Positions 10,188-47,986 of a stretch of DNA of 64,000 nucleotides are shown here, one piece after another. Origin of the DNA: Candidatus Methanoperedens sp. (GTDB lineage: Archaea; Halobacteriota; Methanosarcinia; Methanosarcinales; Methanoperedenaceae). How positions within the stretch are numbered: position 1 is the first letter of the stretch; each line of letters opens with the position of its first letter. The DNA lies in contig JAPZAS010000035.1 in the NCBI GenBank assembly GCA_027460525.1, positions 1 through 64,000 of the forward strand, read 5' to 3'. The notes under the pieces are model-generated. The model had not been told where the DNA came from. It did not search any database and saw only the letters and a program-made list of their open reading frames with translations. A program made the position numbers and the translations under genes.

Positions 10188-10383
10188 CTATAAACCTTCC
10201 TCACCAGCAGCGCAATTCTGCGTGGAAATGTATTTCTCAACCACTTCCCAGCCCTGCCCGACCGGGCCATGATAGCAGCCGGGAGCCCAGAGATGACCTT
10301 CACACCATTCCCTGAGATGCGGAAATTCCTGTCTCTATATCCTGCTTGATCTTCCTTTGATTTTCTTAGCGAAAATGGGTGCA
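10188..10383 (-). pseudogene. IS200/IS605-family TnpA transposase remnant
   Basis: Read leftward in one frame from about 10383, the translation gives 'FAKKIKGRSSRI', a stop, then 'EFPHLREWCEGHLWAPGCY' and 'GQGWEVVEKYISTQN', ending at a TAG at 10188. This is the characteristic C-terminal half of Y1 HUH transposases of the IS200/IS605 family, including the 'GHLWAPGCY' segment. The N-terminal half with the HUH motif is missing and there is an in-frame stop, so the copy is dead. Two other frames across this interval look like short genes but are shadows of this relic. Confidence 0.7.
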
Positions 10384-22915: not shown

Positions 22916-24253
22916 ATGACAGAAATAGGAATTATTGCAGTCGGCGGCTACAATGAAATGGGCAGGAACATGACCGGGATAAGGATTGATAATGATATCA
23001 TTGTTCTGGATATGGGACTGCAGCTGGACAGGGTGCAGATACATGAAGACGTGGAAATAGACAAAATGCACTCGATGGACCTGATAAAGATAGGTGCCAT
23101 TCCTGACGATACAGTCATGAAAGAAGTAAGCGGAAGCGTCAAAGCCATCGTATGCACGCACGGTCACCTCGACCATATCGGGGCAATACCGAAACTTGCG
23201 CACAGGTACAAAGCACCTATAATCGCAACTCCTTATACAGCGGAACTGGTCAGGCATGAGATATCCGAGGAAAAGAAATTTAAGGTAACAAATGAAGTAA
23301 TTCCCCTGAGGCTCGGGGGAACATATAACCTCACCCCTGATATACAGATCGAATTCATCAGGATACAGCACAGCATAGTGGATTCGGCTTTTGCTGCAAT
23401 CCACACACCGGGTGGGGTAGTTTTGTATGCCAGCGACTTCAAACTGGACAGGACGCCAACTTTGGGCGAACCACCAGACTTCCAGAGGCTCAGAAAACTT
23501 GGAAAAGAAGGCGTCAGGGCTATGATAACCGAAAGTACGAATTCAGGACTCTCAGGGAAGACGCCCTCGGAGCAAATAGCAAAAGACCTGGTGCGAGACG
23601 TTTTACTTGGAACAGAGGAGACCGATTCAGGTGTCCTGATTACCACATTCTCATCCCATGTGGCACGCATTAAAGCTATCATTGAGGCTGCAGAGGAAAT
23701 GAACAGGATCCCGGTACTTCTTGGCAGGTCCATGGAGCGCTATCTTTCAATAGCCGAGAAGATGAATTATATAAAATTCCCTGAAAATCTTGAAATTCAC
23801 GGCAACCGAAATGCCGTTGAAAAAGCCCTGAGGCGCATATCCCAGGATGGGAAGAAAAAATACCTCCTTATAACCACGGGTCATCAGGGCGAACCCGATT
23901 CCATTCTCACAAGGATAGCAAACCTGGAGACGCAGTTCAAGATAGAGCCAGGGGATAAGGTGATTTTCTCGGCGAACACAATCCCGAGCCCCATGACGAT
24001 GGCGAACCGGCATGCCCTTGAGATAAAATTGAAAATGCAGGGAGCACGAATATATGAAAATGTGCATGTGTCAGGGCATGCGAGCAGGGAAGACCACTGG
24101 GAACTCCTGAGGATGATATCTCCAGAGCAGGTGATACCGTCTCATGGGAACATGACCATGCATGCAAGCTATGTCGAAATGGCTGAGGATGCAGGATACG
24201 TTTTCGGGGATACTGTGCATATAATGAGAAACGGTGAGGAGATGGTTTTATAA
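22916..24253 (+). CDS. rnj: Archaeal ribonuclease J
   Basis: A 445-residue beta-CASP metallo-beta-lactamase nuclease. The metal motif 'THGHLDHIGAIPK' is at about 81-93, with further MBL motifs 'RIQHSIVDSAFAA' and 'YASDFKLD', the beta-CASP insertion, and the C-terminal 'HVSGHASREDHWELL' and 'SHGN' motifs. aRNase J is a 5'-3' exoribonuclease in mRNA turnover. Its position inside the isoprenoid cluster, between fni and idsA, is a known euryarchaeal arrangement. GGAGTG precedes the ATG. Confidence 0.94.
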   Translation: MTEIGIIAVGGYNEMGRNMTGIRIDNDIIVLDMGLQLDRVQIHEDVEIDKMHSMDLIKIGAIPDDTVMKEVSGSVKAIVCTHGHLDHIGAIPKLAHRYKAPIIATPYTAELVRHEISEEKKFKVTNEVIPLRLGGTYNLTPDIQIEFIRIQHSIVDSAFAAIHTPGGVVLYASDFKLDRTPTLGEPPDFQRLRKLGKEGVRAMITESTNSGLSGKTPSEQIAKDLVRDVLLGTEETDSGVLITTFSSHVARIKAIIEAAEEMNRIPVLLGRSMERYLSIAEKMNYIKFPENLEIHGNRNAVEKALRRISQDGKKKYLLITTGHQGEPDSILTRIANLETQFKIEPGDKVIFSANTIPSPMTMANRHALEIKLKMQGARIYENVHVSGHASREDHWELLRMISPEQVIPSHGNMTMHASYVEMAEDAGYVFGDTVHIMRNGEEMVL

Positions 24254-24540
24254 AAAACTTTAGGAAAGTTTTATCAAGGAACTTTGGGAAAGTTCCATCA
24301 AACGAGGGGTATGCTTTGCATACCCCAACACAGCGTGAACCGATGTTTCGGTTCTCAAACGACGGGTATGGCGCACCATACCCGAACACGCCCTCCCGAG
24401 GCGTGACTCGGGAAGGGTATGCTTCGCATACCCTATGCATCATAAAGCGAGGCGTCGCTAAAACTTTAGGAAAGTTTTATCAAACGACAGGTATGCGAAG
24501 CATACCTGAACACCGGCTAAAGCGAGGTCTCGCTTTATGA
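24254..24540 (+). repeat. Array of about ten short palindromes between RNase J and idsA
   Basis: The whole intergenic stretch is made of hairpin-forming units: AAAACTTTAGGAAAGTTTT (24256 and 24460), GGAACTTT-ggg-AAAGTTCC (24278), GGGGTATGC-ttt-GCATACCCC (24306), GAACCGA-tgt-TCGGTTC (24337), GGGTATGG-cgca-CCATACCC (24364), CCCGAG-gcgtga-CTCGGG (24395), GGGTATGC-tt-GCATACCC (24415), AGGTATGC-gaa-GCATACCT (24490) and AAAGCGAG-gt-CTCGCTTT (24519). The last abuts the idsA ATG. A sister array is at 47240-47449, in the same orientation relative to transcription. Confidence 0.9.
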
Positions 24541-25499
24541 TCGAAGAAATCCTGCAGCAAAAAGCCAAAATGGTGGATGAAGCCATCCCCAGATTCCTGC
24601 CCATAACCCCGCCTGATGAGATGTATAAAGCCATGCGCCACCTGCTGGATGCTGGGGGAAAGAGGCTTCGCCCTTCTGCACTGCTGCTGGCAACAGAAGC
24701 CGTCGGGGGCAAGCCTGAAAATGTACTTCCTGCGGCAGTGGCTATCGAATTGATACATAATTTCACGTTGATCCACGATGACATCATGGACGAGGCTGAC
24801 CTTCGAAGAGGGCTTGCGACGGTACATAAAAAATGGGGTGTGTCGGGAGCGATAGTTGCAGGGGATGCCCTTTATTCAAAGGCTTTTGAGATTCTTTCGT
24901 GCACAAAAAGCGAGCCTTCGCAGCTTGTGGAAAGCCTTGAACTTATGTCGAAAACGTGCACGGATATATGCGAGGGGCAGTGGATGGATATGAATTTCCA
25001 GACCCGAAAAGATGTGACAGAGGCAGAATACATGCGCATGGTGGAGAAAAAAACCGCCGTGCTTTTTGCCAGCGCCGTGAAAATGGGGGCGATATTATCT
25101 GGCGCCAATCGGGATTATGTGCGGGCGTTATGGGATTTCGGGCGCCTGACAGGGGTTGGATTCCAGATTTACGACGATGTGATTGACCTTATAACGCCTG
25201 AGGGGATACTCGGGAAAGCGCAGGGCGGGGATATTATTGAAGGCAAGCGTACGCTTATTGTTATCCATGCGCTCTCAAAAGGGGTCAGTATTGATGCGCT
25301 TGGGAAAAGCAATGCCACACGAAGCGAGGTTTCGGCAGCCTTGACTTCGATGAAAGAATCGGGTTCGATCGATTATGCCATGAACAAGGCTTTGAGTTTC
25401 GTGGAGGAAGGTAAAGCCGCGCTTAAGGTGCTGCCTGATTCTGAGGCAAAGAAGTTGCTTATCAGGGTTGCAGATTATATGATTGAGAGGAAGTACTAG
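24537..25499 (+). CDS. idsA: Bifunctional short-chain prenyl diphosphate synthase (FPP/GGPP synthase)
   Basis: A 320-residue trans-prenyltransferase. The first Asp-rich motif is 'LIHDDIMDEADLRRG' and the second 'YDDVIDLITP'; 'GGKRLRP' is the IPP-binding signature. It makes the C15/C20 prenyl diphosphates for archaeal ether lipids. The ATG directly follows a hairpin whose 5' arm and loop contain the only candidate ribosome-binding site (GAGGT, 24524-24528), so translation may depend on RNA folding. Confidence 0.95.
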   Translation: MIEEILQQKAKMVDEAIPRFLPITPPDEMYKAMRHLLDAGGKRLRPSALLLATEAVGGKPENVLPAAVAIELIHNFTLIHDDIMDEADLRRGLATVHKKWGVSGAIVAGDALYSKAFEILSCTKSEPSQLVESLELMSKTCTDICEGQWMDMNFQTRKDVTEAEYMRMVEKKTAVLFASAVKMGAILSGANRDYVRALWDFGRLTGVGFQIYDDVIDLITPEGILGKAQGGDIIEGKRTLIVIHALSKGVSIDALGKSNATRSEVSAALTSMKESGSIDYAMNKALSFVEEGKAALKVLPDSEAKKLLIRVADYMIERKY

Positions 25500-45886: not shown

Positions 45887-47242
45887 CTATTTTTCGAAAA
45901 ATCTCCTGAGAAACTTCCTGAATTCCTCATCCTTGACATCCAGTATCTTCTCATCTTCCAGTGCATGAAGCTCCTTTTTAATGCTCAACGCAAGATGCTT
46001 TCCCAGGCTGCAATTCAGGATTTCCGAATCTACAAGTTTCGGAGCCTCGTGATATTTCCTCGGGATCTCAACCATGTATTTCCCGTTCCGGATAAATACA
46101 TTGGAAAATGTGTTCGAATCCTTATATTTGGATTTGAATGCAAGAGCATGTTCTTTTGACCAGACAAAAGGACCGCCATGCTTCCTTACCAGCGGGAGCC
46201 TTGCAGTCTCAAGTTCAAACAGTACAATCGCTTTTTTATCAGAAGCCCACACGCTGCTGTTATACACGCAAAATTCGTATCTCTCGAACATCTCATTGAC
46301 GGAATATTCAAGCTTATGAAGCTGCGGGAATAATACATCCTCAACTACATCAGGCGCTTCAAGTTCAATGGCTATCAGTGATGTCCTTCTTGCGGCAAGG
46401 ATTTTCCTGAATTCATCATCCGAAAGCGGCTCTGGAACCTTCCTGGTGAAATAAGCCTCATCAGGATTTTCCAGGAACTCGCAGGCTTTATCCATAAAAA
46501 TGCACAGGTTATCAAGCGACAGCGCCGCAGCAACATTGCGCTGCGGGTCGGTAGGGTCAACCACGACCATGGGGTCATTGTGTGAAGCGGTACCGTGCTC
46601 TTCTATGTCAATGGTTATTCCAGGCTTCCAGTCGCGCGATGCTTCAAGAACCTTCATGAATGAGCCGTATTGAATTACAAGCAGTTCCACAAGATAGCCG
46701 GAAAAACCATGCGTCTTAAGCTCCGAGCCGTAGACGCCTGTTCCTTTCATGAACTGCTTTAACAGCAGCACCTCGTCCTCAAGTCCCTTGATCATGGAGG
46801 CAACGTAGATATTGTGGAAGGGTGTCCTGTCAACTGCGGATTTTATTTCCGAAGCGCGCTCCACGTTGAAAGCAGGGACAAGATCGACCTCGAAGCCGTC
46901 AACGACGGCATGGATGTAGGGATGCTCAGCATACCGCTCTTCAAAGCTCTGCGCATCCTGCGAGACTTTCCGTGCGACATAGAGCCCTTTTTCTTCAAGT
47001 TCCTCGCGTTCCAGGGAAGGAGGGAACATGATAAAAATATCAAGGTCGTGCTCTCCTGATATCCATGTTCCGCGCGCGGCAGAGCCCACGAGCTGTGCGC
47101 TGGCGCTGATGCCTTCCTGCTGTGCTGTGGAATTAACTCTGGCGATTATGCTTTCGGCAAGCGATGCGAGCCTGACTTTTTCTGCTTCGCCGGGTTTTAT
47201 GCGTGAAAGGATCGAGGCGCAGATTTTATTGATGGCGATCAT
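45887..47242 (-). CDS. cca: CCA-adding tRNA nucleotidyltransferase, archaeal class I
   Basis: A 451-residue enzyme that adds or repairs the 3' CCA of tRNA. The nucleotidyltransferase signature 'LVGSAARGTWISGEHDLDIF' (Gly-Ser and Asp-x-Asp) is near residue 48-67. The length is normal for archaeal Cca. The ATG at 47242 immediately follows, on its strand, the 3' arm of a palindrome (AAAGGG...CCCTTT-ATG). It is downstream of thpR, a common archaeal pairing, across a 207-bp palindrome array. Confidence 0.95.
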   Translation of the reverse strand: MIAINKICASILSRIKPGEAEKVRLASLAESIIARVNSTAQQEGISASAQLVGSAARGTWISGEHDLDIFIMFPPSLEREELEEKGLYVARKVSQDAQSFEERYAEHPYIHAVVDGFEVDLVPAFNVERASEIKSAVDRTPFHNIYVASMIKGLEDEVLLLKQFMKGTGVYGSELKTHGFSGYLVELLVIQYGSFMKVLEASRDWKPGITIDIEEHGTASHNDPMVVVDPTDPQRNVAAALSLDNLCIFMDKACEFLENPDEAYFTRKVPEPLSDDEFRKILAARRTSLIAIELEAPDVVEDVLFPQLHKLEYSVNEMFERYEFCVYNSSVWASDKKAIVLFELETARLPLVRKHGGPFVWSKEHALAFKSKYKDSNTFSNVFIRNGKYMVEIPRKYHEAPKLVDSEILNCSLGKHLALSIKKELHALEDEKILDVKDEEFRKFLRRFFEK

Positions 47243-47449
47243 AAAGGGTTACGCCCCTTTATGACGTATAGGGGTATCTGCGATACCCCTTGTTTTGATA
47301 AAACTTTCCTAAAGTTTTTCATAAAGGGTTACGCCCCTTTATGACGTATAGGGGATATTTTATATCCCCTTCCCGAGTCACGCCTCGGGAGGGCGTGTCC
47401 GGGTATGGCGCACCATACCCGTCGTTTGATAAAACTTTCTTAAAGTTTT
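47240..47449 (-). repeat. Array of short palindromes between thpR and cca
   Basis: Units in this array are CATAAAGGG-ttacgc-CCCTTTATG (47240-47263, again at 47320-47343), AGGGGTATC-tgc-GATACCCCT (47269), AAAACTTTCCTAAAGTTTT (47299, variant at 47431), GGGGATAT-ttt-ATATCCCC (47351), CCCGAG-tcacgc-CTCGGG (47371) and GGGTATGG-cgca-CCATACCC (47401). Several are exact reverse complements of units at 24254-24540, so both arrays have the same sense relative to their genes. A block of about 35 bp is directly repeated 80 bp apart. Confidence 0.9.
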
Positions 47450-47986
47450 TCATTGTAGTTTTATTTCCCTCAGTGTCTCATAAATCGGTCCCTTCGAGGT
47501 AAGCGTGCTTTTCTTTAAGGTTATGGACTCCACATTCATCGCGCCGAGGTCAATGTCTTCCAGTTTTTTTATTTTTTCAAGGAGCGCTGCCTTATCTTTG
47601 AGCTGCTTCACCCGCGCAAGCGTGGCATGCGGGGAAAACCTATCATCCTTTTCAAACTTGAAAGGCGAAAGTACTCGTTCAACCTCGCCATGCAGCGCCT
47701 CGAAATTCCCCTCGGCGCCGAGCCAGATGACCCTGATATAGGCAGGCTTCGGGAATATCCCGACTCCTTTAATCCTTGCGTCAAAAGGCTTGCAGTTAAT
47801 CTGAGATAGGGCGGATACAACGGGCTCGACGTTATCCTCGGAGATATCCCCCAGGAATTTCAGGGTTATATGTACCTGCGGGGGTTCTACGAGTTTGATG
47901 CCGGCTGTATCAAGCACGGATTCTATTCTTTCTATCTCAGGAATGAACCTGTCAGGCAATTCCACGGCTATGAACGTGCGCAACAT
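47450..47986 (-). CDS. thpR: RNA 2',3'-cyclic phosphodiesterase (LigT-like)
   Basis: A 178-residue 2H phosphoesterase. The two catalytic His-x-Thr motifs are 'HITLKFLGDI' and 'HATLARVKQ'. It hydrolyses 2',3'-cyclic phosphates on RNA ends. It starts MLRTFIAVELPDRF, typical of the family. Neighbouring cca suggests a tRNA-end processing context. Its stop is followed directly by the palindrome array. Confidence 0.94.
   Translation of the reverse strand: MLRTFIAVELPDRFIPEIERIESVLDTAGIKLVEPPQVHITLKFLGDISEDNVEPVVSALSQINCKPFDARIKGVGIFPKPAYIRVIWLGAEGNFEALHGEVERVLSPFKFEKDDRFSPHATLARVKQLKDKAALLEKIKKLEDIDLGAMNVESITLKKSTLTSKGPIYETLREIKLQ

Follow-up and report, generated by a model that had tools for sequence, protein, structure and literature searches.

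Palindromic hairpin arrays with an open mini-ORF at ATGA stop/start junctions in Candidatus Methanoperedens

Experiments in Haloferax and E. coli have demonstrated termination-reinitiation at overlapping stop and start codons, to which the Shine-Dalgarno motif contributes to a varying extent (PMC6728339). The described elements closest to the one reported here are the mycobacterial interspersed repetitive units (MIRUs), dispersed repeats with a small ORF that overlaps its neighbours at a −4 spacing and in the same orientation, and which are thought to be mobile (PMC12548453; PMC4473831) and to insert in such a way that coupling is kept (PMC12548453); they are described as being without dyad symmetry (PMC4473831). 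Palindromic repeats are represented by the Rickettsia palindromic elements (RPEs), which occur in frame within protein genes (PMC10969869), and by REP/BIME repeats and MITEs such as Chunjie, which are multi-copy and intergenic, some of them residing in operons (PMC2817692, PMC10969869). Short ORFs that deliver the ribosome to the start of the next gene are known from bicistronic designs and leader uORFs (PMC5995908, PMC4833913, PMC12548453). Finally, the Methanoperedens-associated Borgs carry perfect head-to-tail tandem repeats, whose unit lengths are divisible by three when located within ORFs; host genomes are said to contain virtually none of these repeats (PMC9879509).

The Methanoperedens element resembles a MIRU in possessing a small ORF whose ends overlap the contiguous ORFs (ATGA) and in the shared orientation of junction copies and flanking genes; it differs in being archaeal, in consisting almost wholly of perfect hairpins and in growing by hairpin modules. 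Because MIRUs are described as lacking dyad symmetry and the element is palindromic, it resembles them in its manner of working without belonging to them. One copy, in the linker of a Kae1-Bud32 fusion, lies in frame as RPEs do, but the main niche of the element is the stop/start overlap between genes, and its peptide is unconserved whereas RPE ORFs are described with a conserved peptide. With REP/BIME repeats it shares the many-copy mosaic of palindromic units, yet no intact RAYT/Y1 gene was found in this genome, and descriptions of REP/BIME include neither a conserved frame nor ATGA ends. In contrast to bicistronic designs, it is natural, repeated, dispersed and placed between two existing coupled genes. 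A literature search found no paper describing this repeat in Methanoperedens, and comparable elements between coupled genes were known from mycobacteria, with none found in archaea. The reading that we favour, at a probability of roughly three in four, is that of a genus-restricted mosaic palindromic element at ATGA junctions which preserves termination-reinitiation coupling by means of an open mini-ORF.

The analysed window of 64 kb contains only two hairpin clusters of this type. The first occupies positions 24254–24536 of the forward strand, between a gene for an RNase J family beta-CASP ribonuclease (22916–24253, forward strand; TIGR00649, E 6e-146) and idsA (24537–25499, forward strand), which was assigned by family match to isoprenyl diphosphate synthase and whose product is 93% identical to its counterpart in a named Candidatus Methanoperedens MAG, in line with the genome belonging to the Methanoperedens group. 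Hairpin search resolved this array into units A, B, C and D plus variants, and the first-pass annotation, which had reported about ten mostly perfect hairpins filling the 283-base gap, was borne out by the 10 non-overlapping perfect hairpins with arms of 7–9 bp that we identified. Folded as RNA the array has a z-score of −11.5, and none of 100 shuffled sequences folded equally well. The terminal D hairpin (24518–24539, forward strand), TAAAGCGAG-gt-CTCGCTTTA, is followed directly by TG and thereby runs into the ATG of idsA, again as previously noted, and comparison with the 16S tail identified a Shine-Dalgarno-like GAGGT 5′ of this start codon. What that annotation overlooked is the main point, namely that the arrays are in-frame mini-ORFs with a translational-coupling architecture. 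At idsA a 96-codon ORF (24250–24540, forward strand) spans the entire array and its TGA stop overlaps the idsA ATG. Its first codon is ATA because RNase J of this genome ends in TAA; in most relatives RNase J ends in TGA within an ATGA. The ATA is shared with the two closest relatives, while most relatives and other copies have ATG, and the relay at this junction may be weak, fail or start from a different codon, even though the frame there remains open.

The second cluster (47239–47449) comprises 8 hairpins and separates a gene for a LigT-type RNA 2′,3′-cyclic phosphodiesterase (47450–47986, minus strand; family match) from cca, encoding the CCA tRNA nucleotidyltransferase (45887–47242, minus strand; family match). 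It was correctly recognized earlier as a sister array, and it contains two mini-ORFs on the minus strand. The TGA stop of the LigT gene overlaps the ATG of the first (47319–47453; 44 codons, MKNFKKVLS...GRNPL), which has ATGA at each end, and the TGA stop of the second (47239–47322; 27 codons, the basic unit) overlaps the ATG of cca.

Each array combines a small set of hairpin units and their variants into a mosaic, with a preferred succession of units. Unit A is AAAACTTT-nnn-AAAGTTTT followed by ATCAA, unit B is GGGTATGC-nnn-GCATACCC, unit C is TCCCGAG-gcgtga-CTCGGGA, and unit D has the form CATAAAGSG...CSCTTTATG. The smallest element, of which 19 copies were collected, is composed of A+B+D and measures 84 bases or 27 codons (ATG AAA AAC TTT ... 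CT TTA TGA). The genome harbouring the window (G000; 2.44 Mb, 37 contigs) contains approximately 40 exact copies of A and 16 of D. A genome-wide count of CATAAAGS...SCTTTATG relative to start codons, as proposed on first inspection, returned these 16 units, each ending on the ATG of an ORF, as compared to none for the reversed-pattern control; 12 of them abut ORFs of 159–777 codons, one a 53-codon ferredoxin-like ORF, one a 45-codon ORF, and two the next mini-ORF of the same palindrome family. The consensus of unit D is GAGGTG-7 nt-ATG, in which GAGGTG is complementary to the 16S tail ...GGATCACCTCC; a second subtype has AGGGG instead. In most reading frames unit D also contributes a stop codon that lies at the ATG or just ahead of it. 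The arrays differ from Borg repeats in being diverged palindromic mosaics located in a Methanoperedens genome, the exception that resembles Borg-style repeats being a tandem array of unit A directly after a gene stop on contig C24 (L162:2502–2812; 36-bp period, 8.7 copies, 96% matches).

The first-pass annotation had interpreted the ATG as part of the repeat, so that the palindrome would have supplied the start codons of two housekeeping genes. Comparison with orthologous gaps that lack an array refutes this. The three nearest relatives (G001, G006, G010) have LigT and cca joined by a single ATGA, with a cca start identical to that found here, while all Methanoperedens examined for the RNase J-idsA junction share the equivalent idsA start. 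At five such loci RNase J and idsA overlap directly by four bases (ATGA in L010, L017, L018 and L022; GTGA in L016), and in other species shorter mini-ORFs are present, such as MKNFRGGL (L025), MKNFRKVLSNINPGGL (L007) and MKNFKKVLSNEVCASHTRSFINRGGV (L009). Likewise, one further junction (L173) is an empty ATGA in G010 and holds three different arrays in G000, G001 and G006, and a geranylgeranyl-reductase junction (L149) is an empty single ATGA in several species. As the empty-site orthologues begin at the same codon, the comparison indicates that idsA and cca have retained their ancestral start codons and that the element inserted beside them, adding one ATGA; creation of the start codon by the repeat was rejected on the evidence of the empty sites. 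What is supported of the earlier proposal is a dispersed palindrome family, varying in size between species, that abuts gene starts.

In a typical element an ATG overlaps the upstream stop (ATGA), the frame is open across all hairpins, and a TGA overlaps the next ATG (ATGA), with mini-ORF lengths ranging from 16 to 107 codons. Frame usage was counted in copies carrying unit A or D, taken as stretches around pattern matches, and 78 arrays whose D end faces a gene were included (approximately 3,140 codons per frame). Interior stops amounted to 25 in frame 0 and to 159 and 137 in the remaining frames, and 68 of the 78 arrays were open in frame 0, as compared to 3 and 8 in the other two frames; since the copies share descent these counts are not fully independent and are indicative rather than exact probabilities. 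The ATG-to-ATG distance modulo 3 left remainders of 2, 0 and 1 in 58, 12 and 8 arrays, respectively, where the search pattern applied to relatives included ATG and the leading ATG was thus partly selected for, unlike the open frame and the terminal ATGA. About 10 of the 78 are off-pattern, some of these being two tandem mini-ORFs linked by ATGA, as at cca. In 52 elements the first codon overlaps the upstream stop; from 48 of these, short steps led on to a gene of 100 codons or more, and 39 of the relay steps were −1 (ATGA) overlaps. Junction copies lie in the same orientation as the flanking genes, and reversed or unlinked copies occur elsewhere. As a control, 15 G000 arrays of the same hairpins located outside coupled junctions had no preference for any frame (stops 20/10/17; open 5/8/4); these may belong to a separate lineage of the family.

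The hairpins themselves are well conserved. In a set of 18 elements of equal length, pairing holds for 98.4% of stem cells, and compensatory change was evident at 8 doubly changed pairs (33 cells), with 0 of 500 shuffles as good. Such pairing, together with the fold z-score of −11.5, the Shine-Dalgarno-like site and start codon within or beside the stem of unit D and, at this one locus, the presence of RNase J upstream, would also be expected if the hairpins were a regulatory mRNA structure involved in processing, stability or thermosensing, with the open frame a by-product of the unit sequence. We regard this explanation as unlikely, as the same units have no favoured frame outside coupled junctions and the array is missing at cca in the closest relatives, while the genes that follow the arrays are unrelated in function (idsA, cca, aIF2-beta, argH, a reductase and an Sso10a-like gene). 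In addition, length changes at a given junction are mostly in threes: over 16 junctions occupied in at least two genomes, 22 of 32 length differences were divisible by three.

The peptide, in contrast to the stems, is not conserved at the amino-acid level, the ratio of nonsynonymous to synonymous change in the mini-ORFs being 5.5 against a neutral expectation of 3.5. The recurrent opening MKNF-KVLS and the length of the open frames might be taken to mean that each mini-ORF is a gene for a functional small protein and spreads as such, but nonsynonymous changes are not avoided, modules swap freely over a range of 16–107 codons and some hairpin units are read in a second frame once an internal stop has been lost, making this very improbable. 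No Pfam match was found for the mini-ORF peptides, and on this ground and that of the absent amino-acid conservation a functional peptide was rejected. We propose that selection would maintain the hairpins, at the DNA or RNA level, and the open frame rather than the peptide.

Copy number differs markedly between genomes. With up to 3 mismatches allowed, G000 has 32 occurrences of the first unit and four further genomes (G001, G006, G010, G016) have 19–39 each; counts in the remaining Methanoperedens genomes that were searched are 0–9, and the other families searched lack the unit. Phage and plasmid collections yielded no record matching the element, and three pattern hits in IMG/VR, which were without the rest of the element, were ascribed to chance; spread by phages or plasmids was dismissed accordingly. 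A RAYT-driven REP was similarly excluded owing to the absence of an intact Y1 gene from this genome, in which the single Y1 match is an IS200-like transposase remnant with an internal stop (window positions 10218–10373, minus strand). The absence of an intact Y1 transposase, and the internal mosaics that differ between species at one and the same junction, would fit a spread in which repeats with common ATGAAAAAC...CTTTATGA ends undergo ectopic gene conversion or template switching, a route compatible with a relay. The clean single-ATGA empty sites, with flanks otherwise undisturbed, point instead to discrete insertion, and we therefore consider the conversion route possible but doubtful.

We infer from the sequence the following course of events for an element that preserves coupling. 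It would insert at, or survive at, the four-base ATGA where the stop of an operon gene overlaps the next start, in a transposition-like manner. The inserted copy would place its own ATG within the upstream ATGA, and a new ATGA at its end would hold the old downstream start. A ribosome finishing the upstream gene would then reinitiate on the mini-ORF, read through it and reinitiate on the downstream gene, the hand-over being aided by the Shine-Dalgarno-like GAGGTG or AGGGG of the exit hairpin D and by its near-start stops. The fresh exit ATGA could accept the next copy, with extra units adding lengths mostly divisible by three or forming additional mini-ORFs joined through ATGA, and the element would be tolerated because coupling between the genes is preserved. 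That it is a selfish archaeal palindromic element, each copy being a built-in translation relay that allows arrays to grow without uncoupling operons, is the interpretation towards which we incline, albeit by a small margin over its being false. If correct, archaea would have a counterpart to the mycobacterial MIRUs that apparently arose independently, small mobile DNA would have a recurrent safe harbour in ATGA stop/start overlaps, and selection on ribosome hand-over rather than on the peptide could keep a repeat open. The many copies, empty sites and same-junction length variants offer a natural test of translational coupling in archaea; for annotation, it is relevant that such mini-ORFs are easily called hypothetical genes or left as spacers.

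Copies were also found away from stop/start overlaps. The Kae1-Bud32 fusion (L170:1547–3157) carries an A+B element in frame in its linker, and the matching genes of G001 and G006 contain the same unit; in several congeners, kae1 and bud32 lie side by side as two genes. A tRNA-Tyr(GTA) gene (L165:2423–2608, minus strand) contains a 111-nt intron filled by three hairpins of the palindrome family. The linker and the intron are places that tolerate an insertion, which is what a selfish element would be expected to occupy. Four G000 loci (L152, L156, L158, L167) carry arrays of a second class that begin with CCGCAGATGAAAAAACTT; these start away from ATGA gene overlaps, have no favoured frame and may constitute a separate lineage of the palindrome family. 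Lastly, several contigs (L177, L198, L259, L260 and L261 in G011; L183 in G013) share the flank GCTTTCCCGT-ATGAAAAACTTT together with a similar start downstream, which suggests a multi-copy gene travelling with the element.
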